From positions 1 through 56,411 of the IMG/VR virus record IMGVR_UViG_3300003873_000009: DNA of 56,411 nucleotides; one strand, 5' to 3'. Source of the stretch: a virus. Positions 43,777-51,325 of this stretch are shown piece by piece; position 1 is the first letter of the stretch, and each line of letters opens with the position of its first letter. Position numbers and translations under genes: made by a program. The notes under the pieces were generated by a model, which was not told the origin of the DNA, did not search any database, and saw only the letters and a program-made list of their open reading frames with translations.

Positions 43777-44424
43777 ATGGCAGTAAGATTTTCAATTAGA
43801 CAAGGACAGAATGTACCAACAGTATCAGACCTAGAACTTTTAGAATTAGGTGCAGATTTAACAGATGCTAATAATCCTAGAATATATACTAAAACATCGT
43901 CCGGTATTCATCCTATTGGTGTAGGAGATGCTTTAACACTTGGAGAAATTACTCCAGATAATTACGCACGTACTGATATTAATGAAGTATTTAATCAGAA
44001 CGTGACAGTTAATGGTACTCTAGATGCTACTGCAGAACGTGCAAAATATGCAGATATTGCTGAGTATTATGAAACTGATGAGGAGTATAAAGCTGGAGAT
44101 ATCCTAATGGTTGGTAGTGATACAGAAGCTACTATTGCAGATGGTACTAAAATGATTATGGGAGTTTGTTCTACAGCACCAGCTTATCTTATGAATACTA
44201 AAATTCAAAACGAAGAGGTCGAACACTATGCTCCTTTAGCACTTAAAGGAAGAATTCCTGTTAATATTACAGGTTCTGCTAAAAGAGGTGATTATATAGT
44301 ATTAGATAAAAAGAATCCAGGAAAGGGTAAAGCTGTTAAGACATATCCTAAACAAGATATTGAAAAGGTACTCATAGGAGTTTGTATAACTCCAGGAAAA
44401 GGTACATGTGAGGTGAAAGTATAA
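43777..44424 (+). CDS. Virion structural protein with fibre-type autoprocessing-like domain
   Basis: 215 residues. N-terminal fibre module (MAVRFSIRQGQNVPTVSDLE, RIYTKTSSGIHPIG). Then AERAKYADIAEYYETDEEYK, AGDILMVGSD, MIMGVCSTAPAYLMN, LALKGRIPVNITGSAKRGDY and LIGVCITPGKGTCEVKV, a C-terminal domain that recurs in tail and fibre proteins of marine T4-like phages. It is the virion gene nearest to the radical SAM operon and may be a partner or second target. It overlaps a 27-codon ORF by one base. Confidence 0.7.
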   Translation: MAVRFSIRQGQNVPTVSDLELLELGADLTDANNPRIYTKTSSGIHPIGVGDALTLGEITPDNYARTDINEVFNQNVTVNGTLDATAERAKYADIAEYYETDEEYKAGDILMVGSDTEATIADGTKMIMGVCSTAPAYLMNTKIQNEEVEHYAPLALKGRIPVNITGSAKRGDYIVLDKKNPGKGKAVKTYPKQDIEKVLIGVCITPGKGTCEVKV

Positions 44425-44561: not shown

Positions 44562-45695
44562 ATGTCTCAATGTCAATCTTCTTGTAATTCTGATTCAATC
44601 CATATAGATATTAATACTACTTCAATTTGTAATATCGCCTGTACGTATTGTAGTGAAGGGAATGAATGTGGACTCTCTTCTCTATATCTTAAAAATACTC
44701 AAGTCAAAGTTGAAGATTTAATTAATAGGCTTGGAAAAGATCCTGCTAAAGGTAAAACTATTAACTTCTGGGGTGGAGAGCCGTTTGTTAATTTCAATTT
44801 TTGTAAACTAATTATAGAGGAATTTAAAAAAGATTCTTCATTCTCCTTCTTTTTCTATACAAATGGTATTCTTGTTCCTGATCATATAGAGGAACTTAAA
44901 AAATGGAATGAAGAATTTGGAAAAGAATTAGGTTATGACGGACAACCTAGACTTATAATTCAAATTTCTTATGATGGTAAATATCTTACTGATAATATTA
45001 GAATTGATAAGTCTGGAAAGGGTACCTCAGATAGAGTAGAAAAAGCTTTTAAACTTCTTAAAGAAAATGATATAGAAACTTCCTTAAAATCTGTAATTTC
45101 TTCAGATGGTTTTGATTATCTATATGATAGTTTTATAAGTTGTTATAAACTTCAAGGATATTATAATCCTACTCCTGACTTATGGTCCGATAGAACAGAA
45201 GATGAATTTCAAAAAGACTTAGAGGTATTAGAAGATCAACTTTCTAAGATTGCTGCTTATATAATAGCTAGAAACTTAAAGCCAGATGTCTTCTCATGGT
45301 TCGGAAGATCAAGAGCTATTTGTTCTGTAGGTTCTAATATGATTTCTGTAGATTTAGATGGAAAATTATATCCGTGTCATGCTCTCCAATATAAGGGGAG
45401 GGACGAACATGTTGTAGGAACTCTTGATAATTTTACAGAAGTAAAAGAAAAAACAATGAAGGCTTTTAAAATAATTAATTCCCATCTTCCTGAAGAGTGT
45501 CAAAAATGTAATGTTAACTTTTGTATGAAGTGTCAAGCTGCAAATTATGATAAGAGTAATAAAGAATCATATCATGAAAAATTTACAGACTATCAGGCTA
45601 ATTGGCAAGTATGTAGACTATTCAAAATGAATGATAAATATAATAAAACAGTTAATGCAGTACTTAATAATAATATAAATCTAGGAGATATTTAA
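44562..45695 (+). CDS. Radical SAM/SPASM-type protein 1
   Basis: 377 residues. SICNIACTYC (C23, C27, C30) binds the SAM-cleaving [4Fe-4S] cluster, and INFWGGEPF is the second family motif. The C-terminal half has a SPASM-like cysteine set: AICSVGSNM (about C254), LYPCHAL (about C272), EECQKCNVNFCMKCQAAN (about 312-328) and W-Q-V-C-R. Such enzymes modify peptides or proteins (sactipeptide maturases, anSME, QhpD types). It begins the operon that ends with the Cys-rich protein, its most likely substrate; that link is inference. Confidence 0.85.
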   Translation: MSQCQSSCNSDSIHIDINTTSICNIACTYCSEGNECGLSSLYLKNTQVKVEDLINRLGKDPAKGKTINFWGGEPFVNFNFCKLIIEEFKKDSSFSFFFYTNGILVPDHIEELKKWNEEFGKELGYDGQPRLIIQISYDGKYLTDNIRIDKSGKGTSDRVEKAFKLLKENDIETSLKSVISSDGFDYLYDSFISCYKLQGYYNPTPDLWSDRTEDEFQKDLEVLEDQLSKIAAYIIARNLKPDVFSWFGRSRAICSVGSNMISVDLDGKLYPCHALQYKGRDEHVVGTLDNFTEVKEKTMKAFKIINSHLPEECQKCNVNFCMKCQAANYDKSNKESYHEKFTDYQANWQVCRLFKMNDKYNKTVNAVLNNNINLGDI

Positions 45696-45696
45696 T

Positions 45697-46800
45697 ATGT
45701 CATTTGATACCTTTACACTAGAGTTAAAAATATCAGATCAGTGCTCTATGAGATGTCCGTACTGTTATGAAACATTTACAGATAAATATATGACTAAAGA
45801 GATCTTTGATGAATCTTTAGTAAAAATCATAGATATGATGGAACGATCAGGTACTAAAAAGCTTAATGTTAGTTTCTTCGGTGGTGAGCCTATGATGAAT
45901 TGGGATCTAATAGAATATGCTACTAAAGTGTTTAAAAAATTACCTATCGAAGTACAATTAGTAGTTATTTCTAATATGACTCTTATAGATAAGCATAAAA
46001 TTAAATTTCTTAAAGAAAATAATGTCGGTGTATCTTGGTCATTTGACGGTATTTCTTCAAACGAGACAAGACCTTTAGCCACTCAATTTATTAATCCTAA
46101 GGCCGATGGAACTAGATACTCTAACACATTAGAATTATATAACGATAAACTAAGCCTTATTAAGCAAATGACTAACGGATGTAAAGTAATGATATGGCCG
46201 GGTAATTCTCAACAAATGACAGAAAATTTAGAATTTTTCGTAGATAATGGTATTATAGCTCCAGATTATTCACTAGTACGTGACGATGTATGGACTAAAG
46301 ATGATATTATAAATTTTAAAGATGATTTGAGAAAACTAGGAGATAGATATATACAATATATAAAAGATGGAATATATGTAAATGTTGGATTCTTCTCTCT
46401 ATGTATTTTAGATAATGTATTTGGATTAACATTTCAAAAAAGATCTTTCGGTTGTTTTGCAGGAGTTCATGGAGCTGTAATGACAACTGATGGAAAATTC
46501 TATCCATGTGCAAGATTTTCAGATAAAAAGGTAATGGAAATTACTTCCGAATATCAGTTCAAGTACTGGCAAGATAAATTTAACCCTCAAAATTTTGATA
46601 AGTGTAAAGAGTGTGATTTATATAATGTTTGTAATGCAGGATGTACATATTCTCAAATCAGAAATGATAATAAACCTCTAGATAGTGTATGTGAGTTATT
46701 CCATATTATTCAGGAAGAGACTCAAAGAGTAGTACATGAATTGAGAGATGAACCAGTATTTCATGAAGTGATGAAGAACATCTTTAATAATATAGGATAA
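45697..46800 (+). CDS. Radical SAM/SPASM-type protein 2
   Basis: 367 residues, starting 1 bp after gene 1. SDQCSMRCPYCYETF (C16, C20, C23) and VSFFGGEPMM are the radical SAM signatures; SWSFDGISSNETRP is the strand common to SPASM maturases. Auxiliary-cluster cysteines lie at SFGCFAGVHGA, FYPCARF, DKCKECDLYNVCNAGC and S-V-C-E-L-F. It is a distant paralogue of gene 1, not a recent copy. The set is complete, so it is probably active on a protein substrate. Confidence 0.85.
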   Translation: MSFDTFTLELKISDQCSMRCPYCYETFTDKYMTKEIFDESLVKIIDMMERSGTKKLNVSFFGGEPMMNWDLIEYATKVFKKLPIEVQLVVISNMTLIDKHKIKFLKENNVGVSWSFDGISSNETRPLATQFINPKADGTRYSNTLELYNDKLSLIKQMTNGCKVMIWPGNSQQMTENLEFFVDNGIIAPDYSLVRDDVWTKDDIINFKDDLRKLGDRYIQYIKDGIYVNVGFFSLCILDNVFGLTFQKRSFGCFAGVHGAVMTTDGKFYPCARFSDKKVMEITSEYQFKYWQDKFNPQNFDKCKECDLYNVCNAGCTYSQIRNDNKPLDSVCELFHIIQEETQRVVHELRDEPVFHEVMKNIFNNIG

Positions 46801-46804
46801 AAAA

Positions 46805-47026
46805 ATGAGTTGTACAAATTATGATAATATAAGTATATCAGATTTAGAAAATCAGTTAGAAGAAGCTAAAAAAGCATTAGTAGATAAAAAATATAAAAAC
46901 TATTCAGAAATGGAGCATCTTTTTGAGTATAATATAGATTTTAAAATTTTTTTAGAGGATATGTCCTATATTTTAGAGAAATCTAGGAATATAACTTCTG
47001 AGGAAGATTCATATAGGAGAGCCTAA
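46805..47026 (+). CDS. Small unknown protein in the radical SAM operon
   Basis: 73 residues, helical and acidic (MSCTNYDNISISDLENQLEE, AKKALVDKKYKNYSEMEHLF). No family is recognised. It overlaps the next gene by one base and starts 5 bp after radical SAM gene 2, so it is co-translated. It could be a substrate-recognition or adaptor subunit; no PqqD/RRE-like pattern is obvious by eye. Confidence 0.65.
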   Translation: MSCTNYDNISISDLENQLEEAKKALVDKKYKNYSEMEHLFEYNIDFKIFLEDMSYILEKSRNITSEEDSYRRA

Positions 47027-47778
47027 TGAATTTTAAAAATATATTTAGGATTGAAAGAGATTCAGATGGAGAAACTCTCTTTATATTTTTTGATGACTTT
47101 AGGTTTCTAAAGAAAGCTAATTTTTATGATAAGCTAAAGAAAATTGATAGGTGTTATAGGAGATTTAAAAAAATATGTAAAGATCCTAAACTAAATATAG
47201 AATATCCTAAACCTAGCATTCATAGAGCTCTTGAAGCTGTACAATCATCTTATGATGAGGGTATAGGATATGCATATACCTTTGATGAATATGATTTAAA
47301 TACATACATATATCCTAACGTCAGAAGAGACCTTATAGTAAATGCTAAGTTAGTATATTATGATAAGCAGGATAGTAGGGATAAATTCTATTTAAGAGAG
47401 AAGATTATAGAAATATATAATGAAGATAATGATTATTTATCTAGAATTACACTTCTCTATAATTATATAATAAGACAGAAAGATAACTTATATGATATGT
47501 TATTTAATGAAGTAATACATTCAGATACTAGATTATCTTTTCAGTTAATATGGTTATCATACGATATATTAGATATTCAAGATTATAAGAGAATAATTAG
47601 TAGGGTATTTAAAAATTCTTCAGATTCGGAGAAAGAGCTGTTGAAGATGTTTTTAGAGTCTAGGATAGGAAAGTATAAGGATAATCCTAGATTTTTAAAA
47701 GCACAGGATACTGACGAGTCTAAAATAGAAATGGCTAAACAACTTCTTGAAGATATTTGGTATAGTAGAAACCTATGA
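47026..47778 (+). CDS. Unknown protein in the radical SAM operon
   Basis: 250 residues, very rich in Tyr, Asp, Lys and Arg (KKIDRCYRRFKKICKDPK; YAYTFDEYDLNTYIYPNVRR; LLYNYIIRQKDNLYDML). Predominantly helical, with no membrane segment and no recognised motif. Both ends overlap neighbouring genes (1 bp and 4 bp), so it is firmly part of this operon. Function unknown. Confidence 0.7.
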   Translation: MNFKNIFRIERDSDGETLFIFFDDFRFLKKANFYDKLKKIDRCYRRFKKICKDPKLNIEYPKPSIHRALEAVQSSYDEGIGYAYTFDEYDLNTYIYPNVRRDLIVNAKLVYYDKQDSRDKFYLREKIIEIYNEDNDYLSRITLLYNYIIRQKDNLYDMLFNEVIHSDTRLSFQLIWLSYDILDIQDYKRIISRVFKNSSDSEKELLKMFLESRIGKYKDNPRFLKAQDTDESKIEMAKQLLEDIWYSRNL

Positions 47779-48599
47779 ATAAAACTAATATAATCTATTT
47801 TACTACTTATTGTAATTTATCGTGTACATATTGTTATCAGCATATTCAAGGATATCCTCACTATATTCCTTCAAGAGAAGAATTAAAGAAATCTGCAGAA
47901 GATGTGATAAAAAGAGAAGGATTAGATAATCAATCTCTATTTATTTTATTTGGAGGTGAACCTACTACTAGATGGGAAGATGTTAAATTTTTTATGGATT
48001 ATACCTATTCTCTAAAAAAGAATGTTCAGTTTAATATAGTTTCAAATGGTATTAAATTTCTAGATAATGATTTTTTGAGAGATTTTCTAAACAATATTCA
48101 TTATAAAGAAGGTAGAATTCAGCTAGAGATAAGTTATGACGGACAAGTTGGTAATAGAGATAGAATCTATCCTAATGGTAAAAAATCTACAGAAGATGTA
48201 TTAGAGGTGTTATTTAAATTAAAAGAAATTGGTACTAAATATAGAATGAGATATACTGTACATAAAAATAATATCGAAATGTTAGAGTATGATTTAGATA
48301 AAATATGTAGATTTTTTAATCCAGATAGAATAGTATTAAGCGAGTATGAAGAAGATTTAACAGATAAAGAACTAAAAAAATTAGAGAATATTAAGAAATC
48401 TTTAATTAATAAATACTATAATAAAGAAATTATAGTTCCTATATGTATGAAGAATGATGAGATGTGTTCTATTTGTGGATTATGTGAAAAGAATATAGAA
48501 GATTTTTCACTATATTTAGGTAAAAATAATACAGTTAGAAAAAATACTATAGTTGGTAATTTTAATGACTTTAATGAAATGAGAGGAAATAATGAGTAA
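47775..48599 (+). CDS. Radical SAM protein 3, short C-terminus
   Basis: 274 residues. YFTTYCNLSCTYCYQHI (C13, C17, C20) and LFILFGGEPTTRW are present, followed by LEISYDGQVGNRDRIYPNGK as in the other two. The C-terminus has only PICMKNDEMCSICGLCEK (four Cys), less than a full SPASM set, so it carries at most one auxiliary cluster. It starts within the stop of the 250-residue gene (ATGA) and its own end overlaps the next start. It may catalyse a different step from genes 1 and 2. Confidence 0.85.
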   Translation: MNKTNIIYFTTYCNLSCTYCYQHIQGYPHYIPSREELKKSAEDVIKREGLDNQSLFILFGGEPTTRWEDVKFFMDYTYSLKKNVQFNIVSNGIKFLDNDFLRDFLNNIHYKEGRIQLEISYDGQVGNRDRIYPNGKKSTEDVLEVLFKLKEIGTKYRMRYTVHKNNIEMLEYDLDKICRFFNPDRIVLSEYEEDLTDKELKKLENIKKSLINKYYNKEIIVPICMKNDEMCSICGLCEKNIEDFSLYLGKNNTVRKNTIVGNFNDFNEMRGNNE

Positions 48600-48948
48600 T
48601 TTAAGTTTAGAGGAAAGATCTAAAAAATTTTTAGATATTACATTAAAAATTAATAAAATAAGTGAAGAGTATAATGAGATAGATCCTCTAGTAGGATATC
48701 GATTTCAGGGAATGTTTAGAACTTTCATTACTCTGATGAAAGAGTCAGAAGGTAAAGATATGACTAATATAGAGATGCAAATAAAAGTTTTTGAAGAAAT
48801 GTTTGATTTTGATTTCTATAGTGAGGTTGAGAAGAAAGTTCGCGAAGTTCTAGGAAGTCAAGATACTCCTGAAGAAGATATAAATAAAGTAGATGATGAA
48901 ATCTTATCTAGTATTAAGAAAAATATTGCAGAATATCTAAAGGAATAA
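48592..48948 (+). CDS. Unknown helical protein in the radical SAM operon
   Basis: 118 residues (MSNLSLEERSKKFLDITLKI), acidic, with a long helix pattern at both ends and no cysteine. It overlaps radical SAM gene 3 by 8 bp and ends 1 bp before the Cys-rich gene. Its place next to the putative substrate suggests a chaperone or leader-binding helper, but nothing in the sequence proves it. Confidence 0.65.
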   Translation: MSNLSLEERSKKFLDITLKINKISEEYNEIDPLVGYRFQGMFRTFITLMKESEGKDMTNIEMQIKVFEEMFDFDFYSEVEKKVREVLGSQDTPEEDINKVDDEILSSIKKNIAEYLKE

Positions 48949-48949
48949 A

Positions 48950-49519
48950 ATGAGTTATGAGATAGAGATAAATCCTTTCGGTAGTACAGCATGGGATAAA
49001 GTTGTTTATAATATTCCTAGTACTCCTATTGGACAGATCATAGACGATCAAGATTGGAAATCTCTTCAGGATATCTTTAATCAGGAGGTCGCCAGAAGAA
49101 GAAATGAAAGACCTAATTTTGCTTTTTCTGGTGATGTTGGGGTAATTATAGACGATACACATTATAATCAATTTGCTGATGCTATGAATAACTTAAATGC
49201 ATATTATACTGGAGCGGATGGAGGAGCATGGAGTGGAATTTGTAGTGCTAATAACGTTGATGGAGGAATCTGGCATTGTAATAAAAATGCAGATAAGTAT
49301 GTTCCGGCAGTACCTCATGTATCTCCAGGTCAATTAATTACTGCAACTCAGATTAATAAGATTAGAGATGAGTTGATAGCTGCGGGGAATTCATGCTTTT
49401 GTAACTGTAATTACTGCGCCTGTAATTGTAATTTCTGCACATGTAATTGTAACTTCAGCTGTCCTTGTAACTGTAACTACAGCGATGAAAGACTTAAAGT
49501 ACAAATAACTTTTTTATAA
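48950..49519 (+). CDS. Virion-like protein with Cys-rich C-terminal heptads (putative radical SAM substrate)
   Basis: 189 residues. The first 147 look like a small phage structural protein (GQLITATQINKIRDELIAAG). From C149 to Y177 come four heptads C-F-C-N-C-N-Y, C-A-C-N-C-N-F, C-T-C-N-C-N-F and (S)C-P-C-N-C-N-Y: 12 cysteines in 27 residues. SDERLK follows, the motif that opens the intramolecular chaperone (peptidase S74) domain of tail fibres, but the protein ends six residues later. I infer a tail-tip or fibre protein whose cysteines are modified by the enzymes upstream. Spontaneous disulfides or metal binding are alternatives. Confidence 0.8.
   Translation: MSYEIEINPFGSTAWDKVVYNIPSTPIGQIIDDQDWKSLQDIFNQEVARRRNERPNFAFSGDVGVIIDDTHYNQFADAMNNLNAYYTGADGGAWSGICSANNVDGGIWHCNKNADKYVPAVPHVSPGQLITATQINKIRDELIAAGNSCFCNCNYCACNCNFCTCNCNFSCPCNCNYSDERLKVQITFL
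49394..49480 (+). repeat. Cys-rich heptad-coding repeat
   Basis: Four 21-bp units (the last with one extra Ser codon) encoding C-x-C-N-C-N-[YF]. The codons vary between units (TGC/TGT, AAC/AAT), so the peptide pattern is kept by selection on protein sequence and not by recent DNA copying. Confidence 0.9.
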
Positions 49520-49549: not shown

Positions 49550-51325
49550 ATGGATGAAAAAAAATTAAAAAATACCCTTAAAAATATAGAAAATAGTAGA
49601 GGAGTTTTAAAAACTCCAGTACTTAAAAAACTTCTTAAAGATCCTGAAGTCACTAGTATTATTAAAGACTTCCCGGGTTCTTCTAATATAGAAAAAATAT
49701 ATAACTTTTATAGAAATATAACAGAGATTCCAAAATGTACCTGCGGAAATTCCAAAAAATTTAATAAGTTCTTTAATTATGTCTCTTGTTCTAAAAGTTG
49801 TGCTAGAAAAGATCCGGATACTCAAAAGAAAATAGAAGAAACTAATCTAAAAAAATATGGAACAAAGATATCTCAACAAGCAGCTACAATTAAGAGTAGA
49901 ACTAAAAGTACTAATCTAGAGAGATATGGTGTAGAAAATCCTAACCAACGTTCAGAAATCAGAGAGAGAATCAAGGAAACTAATCTAGAGAGATATGGAG
50001 TAGAAAATCCTCTTCAGAGTCCAGAAATCAGAGAGAGAATCAGGGAAACTAATCTAGAGAGATATGGGGTAGAATATCCTAATCAGAGTCCGGAAATTCA
50101 AGAAAAGATTAAAGAAACTAATCTAGAGAGATATGGAGTAGAAAATCCTAATCAACGTTCAGAAATTCAAGAAAAGATTAAAGAAACTAATCTAGAGAGA
50201 TATGGAGTAGATAGTATATGGAGAAAGAAACCTTCGAATATCTACTATGAAGAATTAGTAAAAAGAAATAGATCTCATATGAAAAACACAGAAAATCTTA
50301 ATAAAGAATTTATAGTTTCTAATTTTTTTAAAGATGATACTCCAGATATTATAGGAATTTCTGAGTATTTTGGACTAGATAAGAAAAATTTTGCAGGTCA
50401 TATGAGACGACTTGGAATTGAATACAAGAAAAAGTTTGGATTAGTAGAAAAAGAAATATCAAAATTTATAAAAAATCCTGTATTAAATGATAGAACTATA
50501 ATAAGTCCGAAAGAATTAGATATATATTGTGAAGAATTTAAGTTTGCGGTAGAATATGACGGACTTTTATTTCATTCTTTTGGTAAAAGTAAATATGGTA
50601 TGTTTAATAGTTATTCTAAAGAAAAAACAAATAGAAATAGACACCTAGAAAAAACAAATGCTTGTGAAAAACAAGGAATTCAACTATTTCATATTTTCGA
50701 GAATGAGTTTCAGGATAAGACTCTTAGAAGAATTTGGATATCCGTTTTAGAAAATAAGCAAGGACTTAATAAGAGGATAGGTGCTAGGAAATGTCAAATA
50801 AAAGAAGTACCTAGTAAAGATACAATTGACTTTCTTAATGAAAATCACCTTCAAGGATATAGTGTAGCTAAAGTAAATATAGGAATATTTTATGAAGAAG
50901 AATTAATATCCTTAATGACTTTCGGAAAATCAAGATATAGTAAAGATATTGAGTATGAATTAATAAGATTTTGTACGAAGATAGGATATTCAGTTCAGGG
51001 TGGTGCTTCTAAGCTACTGAAATATTTTGAAAGAACTTATAAACCTAAGAGTATTATTAGTTATGCTAATCGTAGATGGTCTGTTGGAGGACTATATGAA
51101 GCAATAGGATTTGATTTTTTAGGTGATACTAAACTCAACTATTTCTATTTTCATCAAAATAAACCAAATATTTTACTTAGTAGGCAGTCTTTTCAGAAAC
51201 ATAAATTAAAAGATAAATTAGAAATATTCGATGAAAATTTAACAGAATCTGAAAATATGTATAATAACGGATATAGAAAAATATACGATTGCGGAAATAA
51301 AAAATATATAAAATATTATAATTAA
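49550..51325 (+). CDS. Homing endonuclease with tandem DNA-binding repeats
   Basis: 591 residues. Residues about 95-225 hold tandem 22-23-residue units (TNLERYGVENP.Q..EI.E.I.E, five good copies), a repeat typical of phage homing endonucleases. C-x-C and S-C-S-K-S-C near 62-85 add a possible zinc site. The nuclease core (CEEFKFAVEYDGLLFHSFGK at about 328-347, then GIQLFHIFENEF) and the C-terminal 180 residues match the protein at 9618-11291; the DNA-binding parts differ. The gene lies directly after the Cys-rich gene and probably inserted into or beside its S74 domain. Confidence 0.85.
   Translation: MDEKKLKNTLKNIENSRGVLKTPVLKKLLKDPEVTSIIKDFPGSSNIEKIYNFYRNITEIPKCTCGNSKKFNKFFNYVSCSKSCARKDPDTQKKIEETNLKKYGTKISQQAATIKSRTKSTNLERYGVENPNQRSEIRERIKETNLERYGVENPLQSPEIRERIRETNLERYGVEYPNQSPEIQEKIKETNLERYGVENPNQRSEIQEKIKETNLERYGVDSIWRKKPSNIYYEELVKRNRSHMKNTENLNKEFIVSNFFKDDTPDIIGISEYFGLDKKNFAGHMRRLGIEYKKKFGLVEKEISKFIKNPVLNDRTIISPKELDIYCEEFKFAVEYDGLLFHSFGKSKYGMFNSYSKEKTNRNRHLEKTNACEKQGIQLFHIFENEFQDKTLRRIWISVLENKQGLNKRIGARKCQIKEVPSKDTIDFLNENHLQGYSVAKVNIGIFYEEELISLMTFGKSRYSKDIEYELIRFCTKIGYSVQGGASKLLKYFERTYKPKSIISYANRRWSVGGLYEAIGFDFLGDTKLNYFYFHQNKPNILLSRQSFQKHKLKDKLEIFDENLTESENMYNNGYRKIYDCGNKKYIKYYN

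Follow-up and report, generated by a model that had tools for sequence, protein, structure and literature searches.

Why would a phage place three radical S-adenosylmethionine (SAM) enzymes in one operon with a tail-type protein that has a cysteine repeat at its C-terminal end? The question arises from the 56,411-nucleotide DNA of IMG/VR virus record IMGVR_UViG_3300003873_000009 (the window), a fragment of a T4-like contractile-tailed phage in which genes for tail sheath, baseplate wedge, baseplate hub, and terminase are present. On its plus strand, a seven-gene operon at 44562-49519 encodes three radical SAM enzymes (A, B, and C), three helpers (h1, protein X, and h2), and a 189-residue Cys protein. 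We propose, with a probability of about 65%, that this operon is a maturation cassette for the C-terminal Cys repeat of a phage tail protein, with enzymes that cross-link the repeat and a tip that is trimmed by the fiber-chaperone domain S74. The occurrence of the operon and the repeat across many unrelated phages suggests a previously undescribed way of finishing a tail-protein tip, by chemical cross-linking.

A cysteine repeat beside three radical SAM enzymes

The putative substrate is encoded by the last gene of the operon (48950-49519) and ends in CFCNCNY-CACNCNF-CTCNCNF-S-CPCNCNY-SDERLKVQITFL. Its four C-x-C-N-C-N-[YF] repeats start at residues 149, 156, 163, and 171 and together span residues 149-177 (49394-49480). 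When the protein was shuffled 100,000 times, no shuffle contained more than one repeat. Relative to the sister phage L042, the repeat DNA carries 14 synonymous and three nonsynonymous changes, with the synonymous rate (dS) saturated, which points to strong purifying selection on the repeat; for the other operon genes, the ratio of nonsynonymous to synonymous rates in the same comparison is 0.08-0.31. In all, 52 non-identical Cys proteins were seen, and the family consensus derived from 392 repeats is C-T-C-[N/D]-C-N-[Y/F/H] with a spacing of 7 or 8 residues, one extra residue often preceding the last repeat. In the structural model of the window protein, three helices are predicted with moderate confidence and the repeat has a predicted local distance difference test score (pLDDT) of ~40; fold searches of the viral and PDB libraries with this model returned nothing at E ≤ 0.001. 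The best viral fold matches were all uncharacterized rudivirus proteins and are not significant (E 0.06-0.8, probability up to 0.9). A tblastn search of phage records with the window Cys protein returned no match, the low-complexity filter probably masking the repeat.

All three enzymes carry the radical SAM core and a GGEP motif: CNIACTYC and WGGEP in A (44562-45695, 377 residues), CSMRCPYC and FGGEP in B (45697-46800, 367 residues), and CNLSCTYC and FGGEP in C (47775-48599, 274 residues). They score 51-55 bits against the Pfam Radical_SAM model [PF04055; cut-off 29.5; E-values 1.1e-13, 1.4e-14, and 1.8e-13 for A, B, and C]. The Pfam SPASM model gives 25.3 bits for A (cut-off 21.5) and 14.6 bits, below cut-off, for B. 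Among 13 divergent relatives of B, its seven SPASM cysteines are invariant together with the GGEP motif and the core cysteines, and the SPASM cysteines of A, which have a variant spacing, are likewise invariant among 13 relatives; A and B can be assigned to the SPASM subfamily. Enzyme C lacks SPASM and has a short C-terminal Cys cluster in an alignment of 11 orthologues.

The genes are closely packed, overlapping by up to 8 bases or separated by at most 4, and six of the seven starts are preceded by a clear ribosome site of the GGA/AGG type; promoter-like sites were no more frequent than in shuffles. Helper h1 (46805-47026, 73 residues), located between the B and C genes at many loci, has the conserved motif QLEEAKK..VD.KY...HLF.Y.IDF..FL. 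Protein X (47026-47778, 250 residues) has a clear homologue only in L042, and h2 (48592-48948, 118 residues) has 15 homologues directly before a Cys gene. Both h1 and h2 are conserved across loci, yet neither matches a known family. The original prediction, which had described these genes, the enzyme types, the helpers, and the four repeats, was borne out in every detail checked.

Co-occurrence of the repeat and the enzymes

Do the repeat and the enzymes form one functional unit, as was first predicted? A DNA pattern for two adjacent repeats found 41 stretches in IMG/VR, and the same codons in scrambled order found none. Radical SAM genes lie within the fetched DNA of 34 of the 41 repeat loci and elsewhere in the same record for five more. 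The remaining two (L015 and L035) are contigs that end at the Cys gene, and in L024, a relative of both, the gene for enzyme A follows immediately downstream. The original prediction had named a repeat without any radical SAM gene as the case that would speak against it, and no clean instance of it was found among the 41 stretches.

The reverse search points the same way. With a profile made from 13 enzyme B sequences, B orthologues (at least 29% identity) were found in 57 loci, and the repeat lies within 10 kb of enzyme B in 48 of them. Most of the other nine are accounted for. Three are Campylobacter phages that carry the repeat elsewhere in the genome, and three (L072, L092, and L116) are cut at contig ends. 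L064 is identical to L069 except for a 284-base deletion within the Cys gene (L064:12668-13090) that eliminates the Cys repeat, breaks the frame, and may be real or an assembly collapse. At L114, a divergent Cys-rich protein stands at the expected place, and L101 is an 8.6-kb fragment lacking the repeat. By comparison, in 80 control loci with an ordinary S74 domain (707 kb, SDERLKxNI motif), enzymes A, B, and C and the repeat were all absent, and every S74 tail had at least 26 residues. Among 226 genomes of the order of Clostridium rectalis, the repeat occurs in C. rectalis itself only, where, in a prophage, a single and more distantly related radical SAM gene adjoins that of the repeat protein. 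A co-loss test on terminase relatives of the window yielded only two distant matches.

The order A-B-h1-C-h2-Cys is kept across a large group of loci. Nearly all untruncated loci contain both A and B, and the third radical SAM gene differs between clades. A comparison of loci that have A and B with loci that have all three enzymes gave no clear correlation by which an enzyme could be assigned to a repeat position. This two-way co-occurrence across very divergent phages sustains the idea of one functional unit, as do L013 and L017, where several tandem Cys proteins adjoin one enzyme set, and the link by which the enzymes would modify the Cys repeat is strong but indirect.

Could the repeat instead be a metal- or iron-sulfur-binding tip with unmodified cysteines, the enzymes serving in loading or in an unrelated role? 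CxC motifs commonly serve as metal ligands, metal ions are held in fiber tips of the T4 type, and the needle of the T4 long tail fiber has HxH iron sites. However, plain metal binding would not require the repeat and two or three radical SAM enzymes to be linked so strictly in both directions, and we regard such a tip as improbable.

The linkage extends to cultured phages. Campylobacter phages of the CP220 group have orthologues of A (gp136) and B (gp023), and CP220 gp140 (CPT_0180), a 534-residue protein whose gene adjoins an RNA ligase/tail fiber attachment gene, carries six repeats. The 15 Campylobacter phage records that contain enzyme B are also those that contain gp140; for one phage, IBB_35, the genome is distributed over separate contig records. 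In the CP220 genome paper, a 21-bp repeat in CPT_0180 is recorded without explanation and the radical SAM genes are read as metabolic (PMC2853527). On this reading, which we strongly disfavor, the radical SAM genes would be metabolic passengers that neighbor the repeat gene by chance. The total of 11-12 radical SAM genes in CP220-type phages speaks for passengers; the conserved order A-B-h1-C-h2-Cys, the reverse search from enzyme B, and the control loci speak against them.

Other Cys-rich proteins were seen along the way. CP220 gp032, a CxxCxNC protein, was set aside as its repeat is of a different type; such CxxCxNC-rich proteins (27-46 Cys) have 123 residues in CP220 and 171 residues in F379 (L045:15842-16213 and L046:15847-16362). 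In six loci (L121, L122, L123, L125, L127, and L128), radical SAM genes 23-25% identical to B adjoin a different Cys-rich protein, ECECTCTCTCTCTCTC, of which L121:7359-7934 is an example. The presence of ECECTCTCTCTCTCTC proteins beside distant radical SAM genes raises the possibility that CxC-repeat substrates form a wider class. Distant radical SAM genes also adjoin proteins that have either scattered CxC motifs or one CVCNCNF (L132:11276-12061, also L133-L135; L129:12178-13590). In L001, L013, L016, L017, and L034, further radical SAM genes (CQLKCSYC and CNYDCFYC types) and sugar/glycosyltransferase-like genes flank the operon.

The S74 tag and the probable place of the repeat in the tail

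Where in the phage would a modified repeat end up? In L007, L018, L034, and L040, a Pfam S74 domain above cut-off follows directly after the repeat. The window Cys protein lacks a complete S74 and retains its first 12 residues, SDERLKVQITFL (49481-49516), as aligned to relatives with a full domain. S74 domains, which act as intramolecular chaperones (ICAs), trimerize fibers and then cleave themselves at the Ser of a Ser-Lys dyad, in which the Lys follows five residues later, as in S911/K916 of endoNF and S587/K592 of MyRF (PMC8326128). The Ser and Lys of SDERLK in the window have the same spacing. The cut has been placed directly before the Ser (PMC8326128) or directly after it (PMC10579305), and cleavage at this Ser means that the mature Cys protein would end with the repeat. 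Some relatives end there naturally, with CNCNY in L001, L033, and L041 and with CNCNYS in L002. The original prediction overlooked that the SDERLK tail is the start of S74, a feature that, as judged from the alignment, places the repeat at the mature C-terminus.

A split of the domain recurs in other phages. Nine additional loci, which represent seven distinct sequences, have a Cys gene that stops 12-15 residues into S74 and a following gene for the remainder [L062:12655-13466, L021:539-1413, L023:9637-10518, L027:2323-3298, L098:12517-13421, L099:9143-9954, L058:2165-3050, L143:869-1767, and L142:1477-1800]. The split-off partners match the Pfam model from position 16-20 onward and have a GVIAQ-type core and a coiled coil. 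A single S74 fragment follows four tagged Cys proteins in L013/L143, and in L042 the fragment is a stand-alone 107-residue gene ~41 kb from the Cys gene. No split of this kind was found among 79 ordinary SDERLKxNI proteins. The split S74 chaperone is a second novelty, separate from the radical SAM protein maturation.

The position of the Cys gene also points to the tail. In the C. rectalis prophage, the genes for Dit, a 1200-residue minor tail protein, the radical SAM enzyme, and the Cys protein follow one another, and in L035 tail tube, portal, and fiber genes lie upstream. Upstream of the window operon, a tail-fiber-like structural gene (43777-44424, plus strand, 215 residues; phrog_19602 tail fiber, 1.1e-12) has the same place in L042. 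The S74 domain in relatives and the position behind the Dit and minor tail genes in the Clostridium prophage agree with the tail-type reading first given to the Cys protein. Indirectly, the relation to S74, the tail-module position, and the fiber neighbors make it likely that the protein is located in the virion.

A competing view is that the product acts outside the virion, as a secreted toxin or signal during infection that resembles a ribosomally synthesized and post-translationally modified peptide (RiPP). Cys proteins with differing N-terminal parts, a common repeat, and one adjoining enzyme set stand in tandem (four in L013, three in L017), an arrangement like that of RiPP precursor arrays, and the NCBIfam relatives of the enzymes are RiPP maturases. 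Against this view, S74 belongs to trimeric fibers, the prophage copy lies in a tail module, and the operon holds no exporter or protease gene. The 189-residue Cys protein, with an N-terminal part predicted to be helical and a tail-type character, is no short RiPP precursor. A secreted product is in our judgment unlikely.

Between the Cys gene and a helicase gene, the window also encodes a 591-residue homing endonuclease whose C-terminal part has a Mom-like Pfam match (49550-51325); its gene looks inserted because the Cys and helicase genes are adjacent in L042.

Candidate chemistry and known systems

Which reaction would the enzymes carry out? The best NCBIfam match of A, B, and C is PapB (NF047865), at 80, 134, and 74 bits against a cut-off of 340. 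The maturase profiles TIGR03974 (SCIFF/six-Cys) and TIGR03906 (quinohemoprotein amine dehydrogenase) also match below cut-off. The closest solved structure is 5wgg, which we take to be CteB of the SCIFF system. A viperin-type antiviral role was rejected (NF038283, 31-49 bits against a cut-off of 180), as was a sulfatase-maturase role by its family scores. PapB joins the Cys sulfur to the β-carbon of Asp and tolerates varied spacing (PMC9413430). As PapB is the nearest profile and an Asn or Asp lies near each Cys of the repeat, thioether cross-links from Cys sulfur to carbon are favored; they are the single most likely option, with somewhat less than an even chance of being right, modification of the repeat by the enzymes as such being the firmer claim.

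The repeat may also be modified by another radical reaction, such as C-C/aryl cross-links to Tyr or Phe, epimerization, or methylation-type changes. Position 7 is Y, F, or H almost throughout and position 6 is Asn in 89% of repeats, and the cyclophane- and epimerase-type models score below cut-off for the enzymes just as the thioether models do. On the other side, the top matches are thioether maturases and the three Cys of each heptad are constant, a constancy that the search pattern itself imposes and that is not evidence, only the other positions being informative. We consider such a reaction possible but rather doubtful.

In the model that we infer, A and B would act on the C-x-C-[ND]-C-N-[YF] repeat, commonly assisted by a third radical SAM enzyme (C in the window) and by the helpers. 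They would introduce covalent cross-links, most likely thioethers from Cys sulfur to carbon of neighboring residues, and turn the repeat into a stiff, oxidation-proof rod. The protein would trimerize and then be cleaved at the Ser of SDERLK, leaving the modified repeat as the exposed C-terminal tip. In the window, the missing remainder of S74 is expected to be supplied in trans by a different gene. The full picture of a widespread, thioether-linked needle that tips a trimeric tail protein, made by two or three enzymes, with its chaperone split into a 12-residue tag and a trans partner, is put forward tentatively, as one that is more likely than not to fail in some part.

Several observations weigh against the maturation cassette. 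All three enzymes score far below every NCBIfam family cut-off, and homology therefore does not fix the chemistry. The search for RiPP recognition elements (RREs) that the original prediction had proposed for the 73-, 118-, and 250-residue proteins did not come out in its favor: h1, X, and h2 have no Pfam match at E ≤ 1, A, B, and C begin at the radical SAM core without an RRE, and h2 is predicted at low confidence to be all-helical (mean pLDDT 68) with no fold match to its model. Substrate guidance may fall to the helpers instead of an RRE. Many of the contigs are near-copies, so that the co-occurrence counts are not independent events, and gp140 is absent from the few named CP220 virion bands (PMC2853527). 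Finally, the tag is present in the 56-kb window and no S74 partner gene was found there, an absence that fits an incomplete genome.

If the proposal is correct, radical chemistry builds part of a virus particle, probably the piece that contacts the host. It would also account for a puzzle noted long ago, the abundance of radical SAM genes in Campylobacter phages and in some environmental T4-like phages, and would provide both a source of enzymes that stitch Cys-rich protein repeats and a short self-cleaving tag pair. A literature search on the motif, phage RiPPs, radical SAM enzymes in virions, and split chaperones found no description in what it covered, which excluded most subscription papers. 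To our knowledge, neither a virion part matured by radical SAM enzymes nor a split fiber chaperone has been known.

Among known systems, the maturases of SCIFF/six-Cys peptides and of quinohemoprotein amine dehydrogenase, the latter acting on a protein subunit, are also SPASM enzymes that make Cys thioethers; in contrast, the phage operon contains no such substrate and its enzymes score below the cut-offs of both profiles. We know of no phage virion substrate for SPASM thioether maturases. The PapB/PapA ranthipeptide system (PMC9413430) likewise has a radical SAM/SPASM enzyme and a substrate in which Cys is repeated with Asp or Asn near each. PapA, however, is a short, leader-bearing RiPP precursor whose motifs are of the CX3D type, whereas the phage system has two or three enzymes that score far below the PapB cut-off, a C-x-C-[ND]-C-N-[YF] heptad, and a tail-type protein. 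CP220 has the same enzymes (gp136 and gp023) and the repeat (gp140), between which its description draws no link (PMC2853527).

The S74/ICA chaperones of endosialidase and MyRF (PMC8326128) share with the phage family the SDxRLK dyad, the GVIAQ core, and the C-terminal coiled coil, but the window and many relatives have this domain distributed over two genes, with the dyad retained on the substrate. A parallel to a chaperone in trans is offered by the Alteromonas phage fiber chaperones gp9/gp27 (PMC10579305), in which the chaperone is a protein of its own that resembles intramolecular chaperone domains. There the whole chaperone is separate, whereas in the phage Cys family one self-cleaving domain has been cut in two.

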